Of a stretch of 21,199 nt of DNA, positions 9,289 to 21,199 are shown one piece after another. The stretch covers positions 1-21,199 of the forward strand of contig NCCR01000075.1 of the NCBI GenBank assembly GCA_002279765.1. Direction: 5' to 3'. Position 1 is the stretch's first letter. The number at the start of each line of letters is the position of its first letter. Below the pieces are notes generated by a model. It worked only from the letters and a program-made list of their open reading frames with translations. It made no database searches and was not told the origin of the DNA. The translations under genes were made by a program, and so were the position numbers. Origin of the DNA: Verrucomicrobia bacterium 12-59-8 (lineage in GTDB: Bacteria > Verrucomicrobiota > Verrucomicrobiae > Verrucomicrobiales > Verrucomicrobiaceae).

Positions 9289-10197
9289 CTACCTCATCGT
9301 CTCAAACCGCTTCTTTAGCACGTCCTTCTGGGACGCACCTCCAAGTTTGGACTGCGTGTCGTCGATCCACTTCTGTTCGAGGGCGTTCTTCGTGGGGCGA
9401 CTGACCTGATAGTACACGCCGAATTTTCCGGGAGCGAGGTTTTCGGCCATCTTGTAGGCGGACACGTCGTCGGTGACGTCGTGCTGCGTTTCATCGATGG
9501 TTTCAAAGGTACCACCTTTCTTCGGCCAGCTGTCATCAAAGGCACCGGCGTAGAACATGACGCACTCGCTGAGGCACTCGACGACGCTGAAGCCATCATG
9601 CAGGATGGCACGCTCAAACATGGCCTCCATATGCTTCACCTGCGCGGCATGCGTGCGGGCGATGAACGTGGCACCGCTGGCGAGGAGCTGGCGCATGGGA
9701 TTGATCGGGCGGTCGATGCTGCCGGTGGGGTCGGTCTTGCTCTTGAAGCCGATTGGGCTCGTCGGGCTGGTCTGCTTCTTGGTCAGGCCATAGACGAAGT
9801 TGTCCATGATGACGTAGGTGAGCTTGATGTTCTTGCGCGCGGCGTGGTTGAGGTGGTTGCCACCGATGGAGAAGCCGTCGCCGTCGCCGCCAAAGACGAA
9901 GACATGCACGTCAGGGCGGCTCAGCGAGATGCCTGTGGCCAGCGGGATGGCACGGCCATGGATGAAGTGGATGCCGTGCGTGTTCATGAAATACGGGAAG
10001 CGGCTGGAGCAGCCAATGCCAGCCACGCAGACGATGTTTTCATGCGGATACTGCAACTTCTCCAGCACGCGGTAGAAGATGTTCAGCACAGCGAAGTCGC
10101 CGCAGCCGGGGCACCACGTGGGATGGTCGGCGGTGAGGGCTTTTTTGGTGAGCTTGTCCGTGGCAGGAGCTGCTAGAGTGACGAGGTCGGTGGACAT
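9289..10197 (-). CDS. korB: 2-oxoglutarate:ferredoxin oxidoreductase, beta subunit
   Basis: The 302-residue product is the thiamine-diphosphate and Fe-S subunit of a 2-oxoacid:ferredoxin oxidoreductase. It joins KorA to convert 2-oxoglutarate and CoA to succinyl-CoA, CO2 and reduced ferredoxin. It shows CPGCG (residues 29-33) and IGCSSRFPYF (61-70), cluster-ligand and cofactor-region cysteines. HGRAIPLATG (80-89) follows. GDGDGFSIGGNHLNHAARKN (104-123) is the TPP/Mg-binding motif, and MDNFVYGLTKKQTSPTS (131-147) completes it. Length and motifs match KorB-type two-subunit enzymes, not four-subunit pyruvate enzymes. It lies 48 bp after korA on the same strand. No Shine-Dalgarno site is seen; the leader reads CCAACCACC before ATG. 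Other 2-oxoacids, such as pyruvate, remain possible substrates. Confidence 0.92.
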   Translation of the reverse strand: MSTDLVTLAAPATDKLTKKALTADHPTWCPGCGDFAVLNIFYRVLEKLQYPHENIVCVAGIGCSSRFPYFMNTHGIHFIHGRAIPLATGISLSRPDVHVFVFGGDGDGFSIGGNHLNHAARKNIKLTYVIMDNFVYGLTKKQTSPTSPIGFKSKTDPTGSIDRPINPMRQLLASGATFIARTHAAQVKHMEAMFERAILHDGFSVVECLSECVMFYAGAFDDSWPKKGGTFETIDETQHDVTDDVSAYKMAENLAPGKFGVYYQVSRPTKNALEQKWIDDTQSKLGGASQKDVLKKRFETMR

Positions 10198-10245
10198 GGT
10201 GGTTGGAAAAGTGGAAGGTTGGAATGCTGCGGGTTCGGACCAGGA

Positions 10246-12033
10246 CTAGGCGGCCATGATTTTTTCGACGCCGGTGACGATCTCGCGGATGCGGAAGGCG
10301 AGGCCGTCGGTTTTGCATACGGACTGGATGCGCGGGTCAGCGAGGCTGGCGCGCAGCAGTGTGGCCAACTGACCGTAGCCGTAGAGGCCGGAGTCATTCA
10401 TCTCCACGCAGACGACGTGTTTGAACTTCTTGAAGAGTCCGTCCAGACCGTCCGGCATCGGGTGCAGGTGACGCAGGTGCATGGCACCTACTTTGTGGCC
10501 TTCAGTGCGCATGCGGTCCACGCTCTCCTTGATCGGGCCGTAGGTGCTGCCCCAGCCGAGGACGAGGACGTCGCCGGTTTGATCGCCATGGATCTCGGGC
10601 AGCGGCAGTTCTTTGGAAAGCTGCACCAGCTTGTTGCGGCGCTTGGCCGTCATCAGCGTGTGCATCTTGGGGCTGCCGCTGGGGTGGCCCATCTCATCGT
10701 GCTCAAGACCGGTGGAGACAGGGTACTTGCCACCGGCCATCTTGGAGCCCGGAGGTGCGTGCTGCGTGATGGAATCGAGCGGATAAGGCTTGAAGCCTTC
10801 CGGGCGGGTGGAGATGTCGAGTGTGGGTTCGACCCAGTGCTTGTCGAGATCCGGTTCTTCAAAGGCCTCGATGCGGCTGCTCAGCGCCTGATCGCTCAGG
10901 ATGATGACGGGGCAGGAGTATTTCTTGGCGAGCTTACCGGCTTCGAGGGCGATGTAGAAGCAGTCTTCCACGTCCTTGGGGGCCAGCACGATGCGCGGGC
11001 TGTCGCCATGGCTGCCGTAAATGGCCTGCATGAGGTCGGACTGCTCCACGCTGGTGGGCAGACCGGTGGAAGGACCGCCGCGCTGCACATTGACGACGAT
11101 GAGCGGGATCTCCGCCATGCTGGCGTAACCGAGAGCTTCCATCTTCAAGCTCAGGCCCGGACCTGCACTGCCGGTGATGGCAAGGTGTCCGGCAAAGGCC
11201 GCACCAATGGTCATGGACACGGCGGCGAGTTCGTCCTCCGCCTGCACGTAGAGGCCGCCATACTTCGGCAGTTCGACGCGCAGCGTTTCCATGATGGATG
11301 ACCATGGCGTGATCGGATAGGCGGAACCGTAGCGCACCCCGGCGGCGATGAGGCCGAGGGTGAGCATCTGGTTGCCATCCGCGCTGATGCGGTGGCCGCT
11401 GGTGGCCTCCCCCGGCACAAAAGCAAATTTCTCGACATCGCCGACCTGATAGGCAAAGCCCGCGTCAAAGGCCAGCAGCGCATTGCGCAGCACGCTTTCG
11501 TCCTTCTTGCCAAACTGGCGGCTGACGATCCCCACGAGCTTTTCCTTGTCCAGATTGAAGACGGCGCAGACCATGCCGAGTACAAACATGTTCTTGCCAC
11601 GGTCACGTGTGGAACCGCCCACGGCCTCCACCGTGGCGGAGGTGAAGGGGACGCCGATGTGGATGATGCCACGCTCGTGTTTGACATCTTCCGCCCCCAT
11701 GTCCGCAGTGTCGTAGAAGCAGATGCCGCCATCGCGCAGCGCGGCAATGTGGTTCTCGTAGCTGTGCTTGTAAAAGGCCACCAGCACATCCGCTTCATCG
11801 CCCTCATGCAGCACCTCTCCCGAGCCCAAATGCACCTGGAAGATGGAGGGACCGCCAGAAATCGTGGACGGGATGGTCATGTAGGTCATCACTTCCTGCG
11901 CCGTGCGGCCGGCTAGACGGGCCAGGAAGCCGCCGATGGACTGGATGCCGTCCTGGGAGTTGCCTGCGAGGCGGATGACGGCGTTGCGCAGGGACGTGGG
12001 AGAAGACGACGAAGGAGCTGAAGCTGTGGACAT
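10246..12033 (-). CDS. korA: 2-oxoglutarate:ferredoxin oxidoreductase, fused gamma-alpha subunit
   Basis: The product has 595 residues from the ATG at 12033. Residues about 18-200 form the gamma domain (RLAGNSQDGIQSIGG at 21-35, TIPSTISGGPS at 53-63). The alpha (pyrimidine-binding) domain follows, with YPITPWSSIME (239-249), QAEDELAAVSMTIGAAFAG (264-282) and TGSAGPGLSLKMEALG. A C-terminal transketolase-C-like domain holds the GWGSTYGPIKE segment. This gamma-alpha fusion is typical of KorA enzymes. The frame is open upstream to 12237, but those 68 residues do not resemble the family and include an out-of-place basic/cysteine stretch, so I use 12033. The leader CTCCAACC-ATG has no Shine-Dalgarno site. 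No ferredoxin-like delta subunit gene is adjacent. Transcription is divergent from the RNA helicase gene. Confidence 0.92.
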   Translation of the reverse strand: MSTASAPSSSSPTSLRNAVIRLAGNSQDGIQSIGGFLARLAGRTAQEVMTYMTIPSTISGGPSIFQVHLGSGEVLHEGDEADVLVAFYKHSYENHIAALRDGGICFYDTADMGAEDVKHERGIIHIGVPFTSATVEAVGGSTRDRGKNMFVLGMVCAVFNLDKEKLVGIVSRQFGKKDESVLRNALLAFDAGFAYQVGDVEKFAFVPGEATSGHRISADGNQMLTLGLIAAGVRYGSAYPITPWSSIMETLRVELPKYGGLYVQAEDELAAVSMTIGAAFAGHLAITGSAGPGLSLKMEALGYASMAEIPLIVVNVQRGGPSTGLPTSVEQSDLMQAIYGSHGDSPRIVLAPKDVEDCFYIALEAGKLAKKYSCPVIILSDQALSSRIEAFEEPDLDKHWVEPTLDISTRPEGFKPYPLDSITQHAPPGSKMAGGKYPVSTGLEHDEMGHPSGSPKMHTLMTAKRRNKLVQLSKELPLPEIHGDQTGDVLVLGWGSTYGPIKESVDRMRTEGHKVGAMHLRHLHPMPDGLDGLFKKFKHVVCVEMNDSGLYGYGQLATLLRASLADPRIQSVCKTDGLAFRIREIVTGVEKIMAA

Positions 12034-12213
12034 GGTTGGAGTACGGGCATGGTGGCACCCGCAGGTTGGTTGGCTGAAGAAACGCGATTCTAGGAGGACT
12101 TTTGCAGCCGTCCATACTGTTGAGTGGCTTTTTTCTGCGCCCCCCCGTAGACGTCCTCTCAGGTCCTCAAGATCAAACACCTTGCTATCTCCTCCATTGA
12201 TGAGACTATGACC

Positions 12214-12233
12214 GCCCCCAAATACCCCGGGGG
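12214..12233 (+). promoter_or_regulatory. GC hairpin in the helicase leader
   Basis: CCCCC (12214-12218) can pair with GGGGG (12229-12233) across a 10-nt loop, and CCCCGGGG (12225-12232) is itself palindromic. It lies just before a U-rich stretch (TTTTGTTTTT) that abuts the helicase ATG at 12249. The G-run is too far from the ATG to be an ordinary Shine-Dalgarno site. A role in leader folding is only a possibility. Confidence 0.25.
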
Positions 12234-12248
12234 ACACGTTTTGTTTTT

Positions 12249-15499: not shown

Positions 15500-16936
15500 A
15501 TGCCAAACTCCTCCGCACTCAGGGACGCTCTAACCCAGTCACCAAACAACCTGTCGTTGCTGCTGCTCTACGGTCGTGCGTGCTTGGAGGAATTGCACCT
15601 GGATGAGGCACGTGAGGTCTTCACCCGTGCCTTGGAACAGGACCCGGACCAGACCGACGCCATGTTGGGCATCGCCAAGGTCTTGTTCATGGAGGGAGAC
15701 ACCTCCGGTGCCGCCGTGCGTGCCGAGCGGGTCATTTTTCTGGAGTCCACCAATGCCCAGGCGCATCTGCTGCTGAGCCGCGTGTATCTGAGCGAAGGTG
15801 ACCGCAGCAAGGCCATTGAGCATTTTGACCGTGCAGCGCAGATCGACGGCACCATGAGCGATCCTGCGCTAGAACGTGAACTTGGCCGCACAGCACGTGA
15901 TGCCCGCAAAACTGCCCCTGCCCCGGCTCCAGAACCTGCCAGCCAGGAGGTGCCTATTTCTAACGGTGGCGATCAGGATGAGTTCTTCGATGACCCCTTC
16001 GATGATCCACCCTATGACTGGCGCCCCGAGACGTTCTACGCCCCCGGAGACCCCGAGCGTGGCAACGTGACCTTTGCCGATGTGGGTGGCATGGAGGAAC
16101 TCAAAGAGGAAATCCGCCTCAAGATCACCTACCCGTTGCAGTTCCCTGATCTCTACAAAGCCTACGGACGCAAAACCGGCGGCGGCATCCTCATTTACGG
16201 CCCGCCCGGCTGCGGCAAGACGCTCATTCTCCGTGCCGTCGCGGGAGAAGTGCCATGCAATTACCTGTCCGTCGGCCTGCACGAAATTTTCGACCCCTAC
16301 TTTGGCAGCACCGAGCGCAATCTGCATCAGATCTTCGAAACCGCGCGCGCCAACGCCCCCTGCGTGCTCGTCTTTGATGACATCGACTCCCTCGCCCAGG
16401 ACAGGCGGCAGATCCGTGAAAGCCAGATGCGCAATCTGGTGAACCAGTTCCTGCATGAGATGGACGGCATCCGCAGCGAAAACCAGCGCATCCTCGTCAT
16501 TGGTGCCACGAACCAGCCCTGGGCGCTTGATCCTGCCTTCCGCCGTCCCGGTCGTTTTGATCAGGCCATCTTCGTCGCCCCGCCGGATGCCCCGGCACGC
16601 GCCCAGATCATTGAACTGCTCGCCAAGGACAAGCCCATTGCGGAATTCGACACAACAGAATTGATCGAAGCCACCAACGGTTTCTCCGGAGCCGACTTGA
16701 AATGGGTCTTTGATCGCGCCGCAGAACTGGCCCTGTCAGCTGCCATTCATACCGGTCAGCCCGTGCCGATCACGCTCGAACTGCTCCTTGCTGTGGCCAA
16801 AGCACACTCGCCAAGCACCCAAGAATGGTTTGAAGGTGTCCGCACCCACGCGCAAACCCAGGAAGGCCCGGACAGCATCTTCAACGATATGCGCAAATTT
16901 CTCAATGCGCCGTCGAATACGAAGAAGGAGCGATAA
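15500..16936 (+). CDS. TPR-AAA+ ATPase fusion
   Basis: The 478-residue product joins an N-terminal TPR array (about residues 15-118, three 34-residue helix pairs) by an acidic/proline-rich linker (137-180) to one classic AAA domain. That domain has FADVGGMEELKEEI (192-205), Walker A GPPGCGKT (234-241), Walker B VLVFDDID (289-296), and the second region of homology GATNQPWALDPAFRRPGRFD (335-354) with probable arginine fingers Arg349/Arg352. The closest relatives by motif are the Cdc48/FtsH/spastin-like AAA clade. The Walker B position usually filled by glutamate is aspartate (FDDID instead of FDEID). No signal peptide, membrane helix or protease domain is present, so it is probably a soluble remodelling ATPase using the TPRs to bind partners. 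The partner is unknown. No Shine-Dalgarno site is evident before the ATG. Confidence 0.85.
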   Translation: MPNSSALRDALTQSPNNLSLLLLYGRACLEELHLDEAREVFTRALEQDPDQTDAMLGIAKVLFMEGDTSGAAVRAERVIFLESTNAQAHLLLSRVYLSEGDRSKAIEHFDRAAQIDGTMSDPALERELGRTARDARKTAPAPAPEPASQEVPISNGGDQDEFFDDPFDDPPYDWRPETFYAPGDPERGNVTFADVGGMEELKEEIRLKITYPLQFPDLYKAYGRKTGGGILIYGPPGCGKTLILRAVAGEVPCNYLSVGLHEIFDPYFGSTERNLHQIFETARANAPCVLVFDDIDSLAQDRRQIRESQMRNLVNQFLHEMDGIRSENQRILVIGATNQPWALDPAFRRPGRFDQAIFVAPPDAPARAQIIELLAKDKPIAEFDTTELIEATNGFSGADLKWVFDRAAELALSAAIHTGQPVPITLELLLAVAKAHSPSTQEWFEGVRTHAQTQEGPDSIFNDMRKFLNAPSNTKKER

Positions 16937-16995: not shown

Positions 16996-18579
16996 TTACC
17001 GCGACATCACGCCGTCCACGATGCGCATGGCACCGCGTGGATTGGCATCTTTGAGCAGTTCAGGCAGCGCCTCCTCCGGGAAGCCCTGGTAGGAAACAGG
17101 ACGCACGAAGCGATAGATACTGCCGGTGCCAATACTGGTGAAAAAGCTGTGGCTGGCTGCGGGATATGGGCCGCCGTGATGCATGGAGGGACAGACTTCG
17201 ATGCCGGTGGGGAAACCGTTGAAGATGATGCGGCCCACCTTGCGCTCCAGCACGCGAATGAGCGGGGCGAAGTCACGCAGGTCTTGCTCGGTGCCCTGTA
17301 GCGTGGCCGTGAGCTGGCCTTCGAGGCTGTTCGCATAGCGCAGCATGTCTTCGAGGGTTGCACATTGTGTAATGATCGAGCACGGACCAAACACCTCGCG
17401 GCGCAGTTCGGCATTGGCCTCCAGCACGTCAATCGTCGTGGTGAAGATGCGGCACGCCGCCTGAGAAGCCGTTTCGCTGGACGGAGTTTCCGACTCACCG
17501 ACAAGCTCCAGGCCATCCACCGTCTGCCACACGGCTGTGCCGGCGTCATAGGCTTCGCAGATGCCGCGATGCAACATCGTCTGCGGCGCCACTTTGCCCG
17601 CGAGGGCCGCAGCGTTGCTGATGAACTGGTTCAGCTCGTCGCTCTTCAGACCGAGGACGACCGCAGGATTGGTGCAGAACTGGCCCACACCCATTGTTAC
17701 AGAACCGACGTAGCCTTCAGCGATTTTCGAGGCACGTTCCTTGAGTGCCCCCGGCAATACAAAGACCGGATTTACTGAACCCATTTCAGCATAAACTGGA
17801 ATCGGATGCGGACGCGCAGCCGCCACGTCCATCAGCGCACGACCACCGCGTAGCGAACCCGTAAACGCCACGGCCTGCGTGAGCGGATGCTTGGTCAGCG
17901 TGGTGCCGATGTCATTGCCCTTCCCATGGAGGAGCGAAAAACAGCCTGCTGGCAGACCCACCTTGTGCAGAGCGCTCAAGACTGCACGTGCGAGCATCTC
18001 ACAGGTGCCTGGATGAGCTGGATGACCTTTGACGACGACCGGACAGCCCGCCGCCAGCGCACAGACCGTATCCGTACCAATGACGCCGATGGCGAAAGGG
18101 AAATTACTCGCGCCAAACACCACGACTGGCCCGATGGGCAGCATCACACGGCGCACATCCGGCTTCGGCAGCGGCTGGCGGTCAGGGATCGCATGATCCA
18201 CACAGGCATTCGCCCAGGAGCCTTCACGGATCAATGCCGCGAAGAGTTTGAGCTGGCCAATCGCACGACCACGCTCACCTGTGAGACGGGCCATTGGCAG
18301 AGCGCACTCGGCATGCGCACGCTCTAGCAGCGCATCACCCAAGGCGGTGATTTCTTCGGCAATCGTGTCCAGTAGCGTAGCGCGCGTCTCAGGTGTCGCG
18401 AGACGCAGAGCATCAAAAGTTCCATCCGCCGCCTGCATGGCTTCATTAGCCTCGGCGTGCGTGGCATCACCATAGGCAGGCTCAAGCTGGGCGCTGGTGG
18501 TGGGATTGAAGGCGTGAAACAAATGGCCGTGGGGAGCCGCCTCGCGGCCCGCGATGTAGTGATGTCCAGTGAGTGTCAT
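16996..18579 (-). CDS. Alpha-ketoglutarate-semialdehyde dehydrogenase (NADP-type aldehyde dehydrogenase)
   Basis: The 527-residue product oxidises 2-oxoglutarate semialdehyde (2,5-dioxopentanoate) to 2-oxoglutarate, most likely with NADP, in the cytosol. The aldehyde dehydrogenase fold shows GASNFPFA with Asn159, the cofactor lysine Lys184 in VVKGHPAHP, FTGSLRGG (239-246), catalytic Glu265 in YAEMGSVNP and the nucleophile Cys302 in GQFCTNP. The KGHPAHP and AEMGSVNP signatures and about 525-residue length fit KGSADH-type enzymes of sugar-acid and hydroxyproline breakdown better than general aldehyde dehydrogenases. It follows the FAH-family dehydratase gene by 30 bp on the same strand, which gives two consecutive steps of a Weimberg-type pathway. 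The leader reads CCCAACC-ATG without a Shine-Dalgarno site. Exact substrate is inferred. Confidence 0.88.
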   Translation of the reverse strand: MTLTGHHYIAGREAAPHGHLFHAFNPTTSAQLEPAYGDATHAEANEAMQAADGTFDALRLATPETRATLLDTIAEEITALGDALLERAHAECALPMARLTGERGRAIGQLKLFAALIREGSWANACVDHAIPDRQPLPKPDVRRVMLPIGPVVVFGASNFPFAIGVIGTDTVCALAAGCPVVVKGHPAHPGTCEMLARAVLSALHKVGLPAGCFSLLHGKGNDIGTTLTKHPLTQAVAFTGSLRGGRALMDVAAARPHPIPVYAEMGSVNPVFVLPGALKERASKIAEGYVGSVTMGVGQFCTNPAVVLGLKSDELNQFISNAAALAGKVAPQTMLHRGICEAYDAGTAVWQTVDGLELVGESETPSSETASQAACRIFTTTIDVLEANAELRREVFGPCSIITQCATLEDMLRYANSLEGQLTATLQGTEQDLRDFAPLIRVLERKVGRIIFNGFPTGIEVCPSMHHGGPYPAASHSFFTSIGTGSIYRFVRPVSYQGFPEEALPELLKDANPRGAMRIVDGVMSR

Positions 18580-18609
18580 GGTTGGGGAGTGGGCGTTTGG
18601 AAGAGTTGG

Positions 18610-19437
18610 TTAAGCCATCGGATTCATCAGCGTGCCGATGCCGTCGATGGTGATGTTGATGATGTCTCCGCTTTGCAGGGTGAATTCATCGCCAGGGACG
18701 ATGCCGGTGCCGGTCATGAGGAAGGTGCCGGTGGGAAAGGTGTTGTCACGGAAAAGGAAGCCTGCAAGTTCGGCTGGCGTACGCTTGAGCTGCGACACCG
18801 TCGTTTCACCTTCAAAGGCGGCGACTCCGGCGCGGTCGATCTGCAAGTGAATACGTGTTGCTGGCGCGGGTGCTTCGCTTTGAATCAAGATGGCTGGACC
18901 GAGTGCGGCGCAGAGCTTGAAGCACTTCGCCTGCGGCAGGTAGAGCGGGTTTTCCCCTTCGATATCACGGCAGGAAAGGTCGTTGCCCACGGTGTAGCCG
19001 ATGATTTCACCACGGCTGTTGATGCAGAGCGTCAGCTCGGGCTCGGGCACCATCCATTTGGAGTCGCTGCGCAGATGCATCGCCTGCCTCGGATGCGCCA
19101 CGCGCTGTGGCGTGGCCTTGAAGAAAATCTCGGGGCGTTCTGCCGCATAGACGCGGTCATAAAAGCTGCCACCACCCGCGTCTTTGCTCTCCTCCATCCG
19201 AGCGGTACGACTGCGGAAGTAGGTGACGCCTGCGGCCCACACTTCCTGGGAAATGATGGGAGCTAGAATACTTTCCGGCGCGGGGGCGTCCACAGCAGGC
19301 GTCGTCGCGGCAATCTGTGAGAGGTAGGCGGAGAGACCCACGACTTCGAGCAGTGCATCCCAGTTGGTTTCCGGCACGGCGTGCCAGGAGGTCGCGGTTT
19401 GGATGAAGCAGCCGGTGGAGGTACGGTATAAAAGCAT
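18610..19437 (-). CDS. FAH-family 2-keto-3-deoxy-sugar-acid dehydratase
   Basis: The 275-residue product belongs to the fumarylacetoacetate hydrolase superfamily. The metal-binding set Glu132-x-Glu134 (VPEPELTL) and Asp153 ([14 protein letters not shown]) is intact, with [15 protein letters not shown] following as in the superfamily. The segment [15 protein letters not shown] (70-84) is typical of the 2-keto-3-deoxy-D-arabinonate/xylonate dehydratase branch, which forms 2-oxoglutarate semialdehyde by losing water. The next gene, 30 bp on, encodes the matching semialdehyde dehydrogenase, which strongly supports this role. It follows the B12-binding regulator gene by 42 bp, so all three may share a transcript. 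Whether the sugar acid is arabinonate, xylonate or another 2-keto-3-deoxypentonate cannot be told. No sugar dehydrogenase or first dehydratase is seen here. Confidence 0.82.
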
Positions 19438-19479
19438 GAGGCAGGCAGACTAGAGGGAGTCGTGCCGCGTGCAACCTGC

Positions 19480-20418
19480 TCACCGCTGATTCTTGCATAA
19501 GGCCTCGTCTAGGCCGTGGAGACAACTGACCCACTGGATGGCTTCATTGGGCAAAGCTACGCGGTAACCTTCAGACGCCCGCCCGCCCACAATGAAGCGC
19601 ATCGATGGCGGCAGCAGCTCGCGCATGCGGCGCAGTTTTTCCACGATGACCGGGCATTTCTCCGGGTAAACCACGCTCAGGGCCACCGCCGAGGCATTCC
19701 GGGCGAGGGCACATGCGGCGATTTCCTCGACGGGTAGATTGGGGCCGAGGTAGGTCACATACCAGCCCAGATCACGGGCGGTGGCGGCGACGATCAGAGC
19801 CCCGAGTTCATGAAGTTCCCCCGCTGGCGTGGCAACCACAAGCTCCGGGGCATGCGCGGGGGTCTGACAGCCAGGCACTGGTGTGAGGAGCATCTCTCGA
19901 ATCACGGCTGTGGCAATGTGTTCGTGACTCGGGCGCATCACCCCCTGCTGCCAGTTGCTGCCGACTTGAACAATCAGCGGACAGACCACCTGATGAAGCA
20001 TGCCGCGCTGGCCGAGATGCATCCGAGCCTGGAGCAGCACGCGGCGTAGGCCCTCGCAGTCATATCGTTTGGAGGCGGCGATGGCGGAATCGATGTACTG
20101 CTCCGGTTCCACCAGTTGGCTCTGCTTCACGAGATCGTCGGCAGGCACGGGCTTCGTCGGATCTGCGGGAATGACCTGCACCACTTTGACCAGTTCCTCC
20201 AATTCAGCCGTGCCAAGCCGCGCCACACCACCGATGCGATGACCATTCTCAGTGAGAATTTTCAACAGCTTCAGCCGCTTGACCGCCTCGTCACAATACA
20301 TGCGGCGATTCGTTCCGGTGCGGCTGGGGCTAAGCGCGCTGTAGCGCCTCTCCCAGATGCGGATCACATGCTGGCTGAGGCCGCTGAGCTTGCTGGCGAG
20401 CTGGATAGGACAGGGCAT
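19480..20418 (-). CDS. MerR-family regulator with cobalamin-binding domain (CarH/LitR-like)
   Basis: The 312-residue product has a MerR-type winged helix at the N-terminus (VIRIWERRYSALSPSRTGTNRRMY, 18-41, with following helix to about 66). A four-helix B12-cap domain (about 100-180) and a Rossmann-like B12-binding domain (about 190-305) follow. Key residues match CarH: W156-x9-Glu166-His167 in the cap, and ExHxxG (Glu201, His203, Gly206) for the lower axial ligand. The spacing from His167 to His203 (36) is close to that in Thermus CarH. CarH binds adenosylcobalamin, tetramerises on DNA in the dark and falls apart in light. By analogy this is a light- and/or B12-responsive repressor. It is the first gene of a run with the dehydratase and semialdehyde dehydrogenase and is divergent from the SpmA-like gene. 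Light sensing is inferred; B12 binding is fairly sure. Confidence 0.85.
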   Translation of the reverse strand: MPCPIQLASKLSGLSQHVIRIWERRYSALSPSRTGTNRRMYCDEAVKRLKLLKILTENGHRIGGVARLGTAELEELVKVVQVIPADPTKPVPADDLVKQSQLVEPEQYIDSAIAASKRYDCEGLRRVLLQARMHLGQRGMLHQVVCPLIVQVGSNWQQGVMRPSHEHIATAVIREMLLTPVPGCQTPAHAPELVVATPAGELHELGALIVAATARDLGWYVTYLGPNLPVEEIAACALARNASAVALSVVYPEKCPVIVEKLRRMRELLPPSMRFIVGGRASEGYRVALPNEAIQWVSCLHGLDEALCKNQR

Positions 20419-20439
20419 GAACGATGTTAAAGGACAGTT

Positions 20440-20451
20440 GCCACTTGTGGC
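20440..20451. promoter_or_regulatory. Short palindrome in the divergent regulator/SpmA promoter region
   Basis: GCCAC-TT-GTGGC (5-bp arms) lies 22 bp upstream of the regulator ATG and 64 bp upstream of the divergent gene. The 97-bp region between the two genes is the natural place for an autoregulatory operator of the CarH-like protein. No second copy of the palindrome is seen, and it does not clearly match a known operator. Confidence 0.25.
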
Positions 20452-20515
20452 TGGAGCGGGAAAGTTTACGCATTGTCGCCGCCTCTGGCTACTGCGTTGT
20501 TATCAATTCCGTCAC

Positions 20516-21199
20516 ATGCTGAACTACATCTGGTCCTTTCTCCTGCTCTCCGGCCTGTGCGCCGCTGCGCTACTCGGCAATGTCTCGGGAGATACCGGCA
20601 TCGTGGCCGCCATCCTGTCCAAATCCAAAGCAGCGGTGATGGACATCGCCCTGCCGCTCGCCGGGCTGATGATCTTCTGGCTCGGGGTGATGCGCGTGAT
20701 GGAAAAAGCCGGACTCCTGCAACTGGCCGCACGCCTTCTCTCCCCCATCATGCGCCGCCTCTTTCCCGACGTGCCGGGCGATCATCCTGCCATGAGCGCC
20801 ATGATCATGAACCTCGCGGCAAACATGCTCGGCCTCGGGAACAGCGCCACGCCGCTCGGGCTCAAGGCCATGACGCATTTGCAGGAGCTGAACCCGCAGA
20901 AGCACACTGCCAGCAATGCCATGGTGACGTTTCTCGCCATGAACACCGCCGCCTTCACACTGGTGCCAATGACGGCCATCAACTACCTCAACGCCGCTGG
21001 CATCAAAGGCGCGCATCAGATCATCGTGCCCACCATTCTGGCCACCGCCTGCACAGTCGTGACCGCAGTGGTTGCGGCCAAGCTGTATGGCAGACTGCCA
21101 TGCTTCGCCATGCAGCCGGATGACCTCACGACAGACACGCCCACGCCGGAATCAGACGGCGGTCCCACCTCCACAACGATCACGCCGCGCCGCAAATTC
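20516..21199 (+). CDS. Nucleoside-recognition (Gate) domain membrane protein, SpmA-like, 3' end missing
   Basis: The frame opens at ATG 20516 and stays open for 228 codons to the window edge. The product is a multi-helix inner-membrane protein. A first helix (IWSFLLLSGLCAAALLG), an amphipathic SKSKAAVMDIALPLAGLMIFWLGVMRVMEKAGL segment, and the family signature NLAANMLGLGNSATPLGLKAM (about 100-120) identify the Gate/SpmA family. Helices near 140-155 and 167-185 follow, then a hydrophilic Thr/Pro-rich stretch at the edge. SpmA of Bacillus is a spore-maturation protein of about 200 residues, but most relatives occur in bacteria that do not form spores and are of unknown or transport function. 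The frame continuing past that length suggests an SpmA-SpmB fusion, which cannot be seen here. It is divergent from the CarH-like regulator gene. Confidence 0.82.
   Translation, partial: MLNYIWSFLLLSGLCAAALLGNVSGDTGIVAAILSKSKAAVMDIALPLAGLMIFWLGVMRVMEKAGLLQLAARLLSPIMRRLFPDVPGDHPAMSAMIMNLAANMLGLGNSATPLGLKAMTHLQELNPQKHTASNAMVTFLAMNTAAFTLVPMTAINYLNAAGIKGAHQIIVPTILATACTVVTAVVAAKLYGRLPCFAMQPDDLTTDTPTPESDGGPTSTTITPRRKF

Follow-up and report, generated by a model that had tools for sequence, protein, structure and literature searches.

The window analysed here is a stretch of 21,199 nucleotides from Verrucomicrobia bacterium 12-59-8 (Verrucomicrobiaceae; contig NCCR01000075.1, positions 1 to 21,199 of the forward strand). 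Towards its right end lies a gene for a MerR-type regulator with a cobalamin (B12)-binding domain, followed on the same strand by the genes of two sugar-acid enzymes and faced by a divergent membrane gene; the subject of this analysis is what that regulator controls. The first-pass annotation had read the group as a sugar-acid catabolic operon led by a CarH-like B12/light sensor. The regulator, the FAH-family dehydratase and the aldehyde dehydrogenase are indeed all encoded on the minus strand, 42 and 30 bp apart; the divergent gap measures 97 bp (20419-20515), and these distances are as it had given. The genes and the predicted promoter elements, one promoter being of the extracytoplasmic function (ECF) sigma type, are:

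16996..18579, minus strand: aldehyde dehydrogenase, candidate 2-oxoglutarate-semialdehyde dehydrogenase, 527 aa (PF00171; relatives 3v4c and 1eyy)
18610..19437, minus strand: FAH-superfamily 2-keto-3-deoxy-pentonate (arabinonate-type) dehydratase, 275 aa (PF01557; relative 2q18)
19447..19452, minus strand: -10-like TAGTCT in the promoter predicted for the dehydratase itself, 9 nt upstream of its ATG
19469..19474, minus strand: -35-like TTGCAC of the same predicted promoter
19480..20418, minus strand: regulator of 312 aa with MerR and cobalamin-binding domains, CarH/LitR class I type (PF13411, PF02310; relative 5c8d; signatures and structure model)
20467..20470, minus strand: -10-like block CGTA of the regulator's predicted ECF-type promoter, 48 nt upstream of its ATG (from dyads)
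20487..20493, minus strand: -35-like block AGTAGCC of the same predicted promoter (from de novo dyads)
20516..21199, plus strand: Gate-domain membrane protein (SpmA/SpmB-like), divergent from the regulator, cut at the window end (PF07670)

Nine close loci, all in metagenome-assembled genomes, carry the regulator (76-89% identity) and, after it, the dehydratase (89-95%) in every case; eight also show the divergent Gate gene, the ninth stopping at a contig edge. An aldehyde dehydrogenase gene is seen in 6/9 (91-96% identity); of the remaining three loci, two or more stop shortly past the dehydratase. Given this conservation, the three open reading frames are genes and not chance frames. In a listing of the 120 closest proteins, the entries that bear an organism name are assigned to Prosthecobacter or Verrucomicrobia; on viral contigs no relative was found.

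The regulator combines a MerR_1 domain (expectation value, E, 3.9e-14) with a B12-binding domain in Pfam and matches CarH of Thermus in the PDB (5c8d, E 2.1e-25). Its AlphaFold2 model (mean predicted local distance difference test score, pLDDT, 81.9; predicted template modelling score, pTM, 0.64) has 5c8d as best structural match (E 7.1e-15), and all 50 structure matches listed are Thermus CarH/LitR entries. RxWERRY is present, in the form RIWERRY in 26/26 aligned rows. Both CarH motifs described in the available part of PMC9304148 occur as well: Wx9EH of the four-helix bundle as W156-x9-E166-H167, invariant in the 26 rows, and the B12 motif D/ExHx2G/P-x41-SxT/V-x22-27-GG as ELHELG, 41 residues, SVV, 27 residues and GG. 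The light-response signatures GxxW, EH, GxxH and GxxxP, as excerpted from PMC11796333, appear in the window's regulator as GSNW, EH, GELH and GPNLP. LitR proteins fall into five classes, class I being sensors of adenosyl-B12 (AdoB12), according to the accessible text of PMC9758184. Judged by domains, signatures and the model match to 5c8d, the regulator is of CarH/LitR type, and the CarH-like identity proposed at first is borne out; a response to light and B12 would go with this identity.

Gene order was followed through a family set of 68 genomes, 55 with the regulator and 13 without, which as relatives are not independent of one another and whose completeness is not established. The divergent Gate gene adjoins the regulator in 49/55 genomes and the dehydratase lies downstream of it in 26/55, over a range of 49-89% regulator identity; the aldehyde dehydrogenase follows the dehydratase in 23 of those 26 loci. 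Remaining neighbours vary between clades. On a tree of the regulators, from which one row was left out as too short, the label "dehydratase neighbour" needs at least four changes, two of them forced by well-supported branches. Insertions lie between the regulator and the dehydratase in L001, L004, L007 and L042, and in several loci insertions part the dehydratase from the aldehyde dehydrogenase. In L001 (2677-2972) and L004 (8943-9275) the insert carries a run of GAGGAC-type repeats and is located upstream of the dehydratase promoter described below. The conservation of gene order supposed earlier thus holds for the dehydratase behind the regulator in 26/55 genomes; as a whole the order is only partly kept in the family. 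The dehydratase itself is found in 59/68 genomes, in 33 of these away from the regulator (50/55 genomes with the regulator, 9/13 without).

Tight spacing on one strand and the recurrence of the dehydratase after the regulator agree with a single transcript of all three genes, through which light or cobalamin would control the pathway from the regulator promoter. The window has no terminator-like site between these genes, the single one found lying inside the aldehyde dehydrogenase. What stands against such a transcript is a predicted promoter of the dehydratase's own. The sigma70-like pattern TTGNNN-N16-TANNNT occurs in 27/27 gaps between regulator and dehydratase (26 family loci and the window), always with a spacer of 16, where mononucleotide shuffles give 0.05 in total; the pattern had come to light in 10 close loci, and 17 further and 29 unlinked loci served to test it. 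It stays beside the dehydratase ATG even where the intergenic distance is 112-333 bp. At the unlinked loci (29 of the 33, without four copies that are partial or at a contig end) it is kept in 15/29 against 0.17 expected. Of the 14 unlinked loci without it, five have an aldehyde dehydrogenase upstream on the same strand and nine have neither. Before the aldehyde dehydrogenase a promoter of the same form was found in 0/23 loci, which suits the single transcript, and a standard sigma70 scan of the window returned zero matches. In the window (19438-19446) as in relatives, 9 nt separate the -10 box from the ATG, and the dehydratase mRNA is predicted to be nearly leaderless.

This conserved promoter is predicted from sequence to allow transcription of the dehydratase, and of the aldehyde dehydrogenase that follows, independently of the regulator. 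A single regulator-led transcript under light/B12 control, the central claim of the first-pass annotation, is not upheld: the dehydratase occurs in regulator-less genomes, insertions separate the two metabolic genes in several relatives, no CarH operator was found in the window, and separate promoters for the metabolic genes, which that annotation had itself named as counting against its claim, are predicted for the dehydratase in every gap. We regard the light- or cobalamin-controlled transcript as improbable.

The regulator appears to have a promoter of another kind. A spaced-triplet search in 33 thinned divergent regions gave dyads pointing toward the regulator in up to 16 of them, the maximum in 20 shuffles being 10. 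The derived pattern WGTWNCC-N16-CGTA is found at no fewer than 9 of 10 matches in 36/50 regions and in 23/33 thinned ones (0.7 expected), with a spacer of 16 in each and 0/50 on the other strand; its score was built from the regions counted, so that the dyad count is the independent part. Promoters of ECF sigma factors have this form, and the regulator promoter looks ECF-type. Toward the regulator's relatives in other families the site reaches a score of at least 9 in 0/30 regions, two scoring 9 on the opposite strand.

The 97-bp region is well conserved across ten close loci, and the divergent pair persists where other neighbours vary, which would fit the Gate-domain gene as the regulator's main target, acted on through an operator of unfamiliar form in the shared region. 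An ortholog in full length (L002:6500-7903) encodes a protein of 467 aa with two Gate stretches, resembling a fused SpmA and SpmB. Such a target seems unlikely: the family-wide motif in this region points to the regulator and never to the Gate gene, and regions of this type lack CarH repeats. The Gate gene, present in 61/68 genomes, occurs in 8/13 without the regulator (53/55 with it), lies on other contigs in four regulator-bearing genomes, and is absent beside the regulator's relatives in 31/31 loci of other families.

CarH proteins bind tandem 11-bp repeats of the form nnnnTnnACAn, according to the portion of PMC9304148 at hand, and the TnnACA operator was taken from there before searching. 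Between regulator and Gate gene, TNGACA counts in 50 regions were 8 against 4.5 expected, and 5 against 8.3 on the other strand, and canonical CarH repeats in that region were rejected. The whole window contains zero triples at 11 or 12 of 12 and zero TNGACA-TNNACA pairs at 11 bp. In the 200 bases before the dehydratase, 13 TNGACA were counted in 26 loci against 3.6 expected; these are not read as operators, as six loci show a TTGACA -35 box there.

Loci in other families of the same order comprise 22 of 24 places with full-length relatives of the regulator and 9 of about 47 matching in the DNA-binding part only. Repeats occur in the 180 bases upstream of both, the score for the full-length relatives being 9.19 against 7.72 shuffled (21 loci, one without upstream sequence being dropped) and that for the others 9.67 against 7.74 (9 loci). 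Divergently beside the relative lies an ECF sigma gene in 4/22 full-length and 7/9 DNA-binding-part-only cases. The latter nine loci (L115 to L123) are MerR loci with CarH-type repeats upstream, and the one member tested with Pfam has no B12 domain.

Within the family, each of the first four genomes searched has one clear match to this ECF sigma factor, away from the regulator (E about 1e-53; the next about 1e-26 or weaker), and upstream of its gene repeats run into a TTGACG box. In the 53 regulator-bearing genomes with an ortholog, TNGACA is found 146 times on the sense strand before the ECF gene, against 11.6 after shuffling, with at least two copies in 50/53; the opposite strand has 28 against 10.2 expected. 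Same-strand distances between these repeats cluster at 11-12, 20-23, 31-32 and 42-43 bp, in steps of about 11 bp. The ECF gene is present in 53/55 genomes with the regulator and 5/13 without (Fisher p 6.7e-6, kinship uncorrected); the ortholog cut of E below 1e-60 was chosen after viewing the matches, and the search's own 1e-40 gives 53/55 and 7/13. Two genomes, G013 (L226, L228) and G012 (L227, L229), have a closer ECF ortholog without sense-strand TnnACA and a second, more distant ECF gene with TAGACA repeats, a pattern that looks as though the target had switched between ECF genes.

The reading we prefer, and hold to be probable on these grounds, is that the regulator is a CarH/LitR-type repressor and cobalamin photoreceptor whose conserved direct target is the unlinked ECF sigma gene, the sugar-acid genes being neighbours under their own promoter. 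Several observations weigh against it. The family genomes are kin, of unestablished completeness, and the dehydratase may also receive transcripts that read through from the regulator gene. The best NCBIfam match of the regulator is the CarH model NF052513, at 105 bits where the cut-off is 400, so that the equivalog threshold is missed; where Thermus CarH has a His after the Trp of Wx9EH, the window's regulator has Gln, and the 26 aligned rows have Gln or Arg. CarH repeats are not seen between regulator and Gate gene, the mean best-of-three score in 50 regions being 7.34 against 7.30 for shuffled sequence; the relatives in other families differ in this respect. A strict score for three consecutive 11-bp repeats exceeds the 95th percentile of its own shuffles in 28/53 ECF regions and not in 25/53, which reflects the spacing of many repeats: they lie a turn or two from one another instead of following directly. 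Strict paired repeats are not enriched genome-wide in 7 genomes (7 matches, 5 in the control); three matches are located at the ECF gene, one in G048, its only match, and two overlapping in G023, and three genomes have zero matches, two of which (G002, G060) show repeats at the ECF gene by eye. The ECF gene is retained in five genomes that lack the regulator, and in three of the five it has at least two repeats; in these three the regulator may be absent from the drafts. An ECF regulon defined by the strict pattern was rejected, with 5 matches in 3 genomes against 28 in a backward control; two of the five fall on the site of the regulator itself, and downstream of the remaining three the genes seem mutually unrelated. 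Photolyase genes, which are common targets of light control (8 loci; a ninth, L248, gave no reading frame), were likewise rejected as targets, with operator scores, computed without shuffles, of 7-8 of 12 in 8/8 loci, and an ECF-type site stands at photolyase promoters in 1/8 only.

The missing His bears on the signal as well, since it completes the bis-His light state of Thermus CarH. Together with the failure to see a photolyase target in the 8 loci, this would fit a regulator that binds cobalamin and senses its level or the redox state, not light. At least 5/31 loci of relatives in other families have a nearby oxidoreductase gene which we take to be CrtI-like (Pfam gives Amino_oxidase), and this points back to light, as do all four signatures listed in the available excerpt of PMC11796333. 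As far as the text of PMC9304148 to hand goes, the His after Trp, upper ligand of the light form, occurs in many CarH proteins and not in all. Sensing of cobalamin or redox state alone is, on this balance, doubtful.

Under the preferred repressor reading, the domains, the signatures, the conservation of promoters and repeats and the co-occurrence are present in the sequences themselves; the response to light and B12, the direction of regulation and the choice of sigma factor at the regulator promoter are inferred. In the dark, the regulator bound to adenosylcobalamin would sit on 11-bp-type T-N-N-ACA repeats entering the TTGACG -35 box and block the sigma gene; in the light it would come off, allowing production of the sigma factor. 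The regulator's ECF-type promoter may be read by the same or another ECF sigma factor, which would give feedback. The housekeeping-type promoter in the 42-bp gap would serve the dehydratase and, after it, the aldehyde dehydrogenase, and the regulator would be a long-standing neighbour in some members of the family. An extension of this scheme, to which we give little credence, is a two-step light relay in the Verrucomicrobiaceae whose photoreceptor gene and sigma-gene target have become separated: the regulator would repress the sigma gene at its repeats, the sigma factor would read the regulator's ECF-type promoter, and read-through from there would add, on top of the dehydratase's own promoter, a further source of mRNA for pentonate oxidation that rises in the light.

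The best solved relative of the dehydratase is 2q18, a 2-keto-3-deoxy-D-arabinonate dehydratase (E 1.5e-57; the next FAH entry 9.7e-19), and those of the aldehyde dehydrogenase are 3v4c and 1eyy (E about 1e-133), a kind of enzyme that presumably includes 2-oxoglutarate-semialdehyde dehydrogenases. Both window enzymes belong to the same sequence families as those of Weimberg-type pentonate oxidation. A Weimberg-type sugar dehydrogenase, lactonase or sugar-acid dehydratase was not identified in the window, and the genomes were not searched for them. Convergent to the aldehyde dehydrogenase, positions 15500-16936 encode tetratricopeptide (TPR) repeats and an AAA ATPase in a single protein (96-97% identity in 6/9 close loci). 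An adjacent gene pair at 9289-12237 resembles by eye the subunits of a 2-oxoacid:ferredoxin oxidoreductase, for which 2-oxoglutarate, the pathway product, is presumably a possible substrate.

With CarH of Thermus thermophilus, Bacillus megaterium and Myxococcus xanthus (class I LitR) the regulator shares the domain order, RxWERRY, Wx9EH, the exact spacing of the B12 motif and, at the predicted target, repeats of the TnnACA kind entering the -35 box. It differs from CarH in that the ECF sigma gene predicted as its target is unlinked, that its own promoter has no repeats, and that Gln replaces the His after Trp. A further known system is LitR-LitS of Streptomyces, where, in the excerpt of PMC12705666 available, LitR works at the litS promoter and crtE is read by the sigma factor LitS; in S. 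coelicolor LitR is described as promoting litS transcription in the light as well as repressing in the dark. As far as that excerpt goes, both have a MerR light sensor that binds cobalamin and acts, by prediction in the present case, on a gene for an ECF sigma factor; here repression alone is proposed and the regulator and sigma genes are unlinked. The system would, on our best reading, work like LitR-LitS with unlinked genes, and a light-controlled sugar-acid operon is unsupported.

Among the literature matches listed, no report of a CarH/LitR protein in Verrucomicrobia was found. A general trap also emerges, in that a conserved promoter can hide within a short same-strand gap. If the reading is true, the operon story gives way to a testable target, and the Verrucomicrobiaceae would possess a B12 light sensor acting through one unlinked ECF sigma gene.

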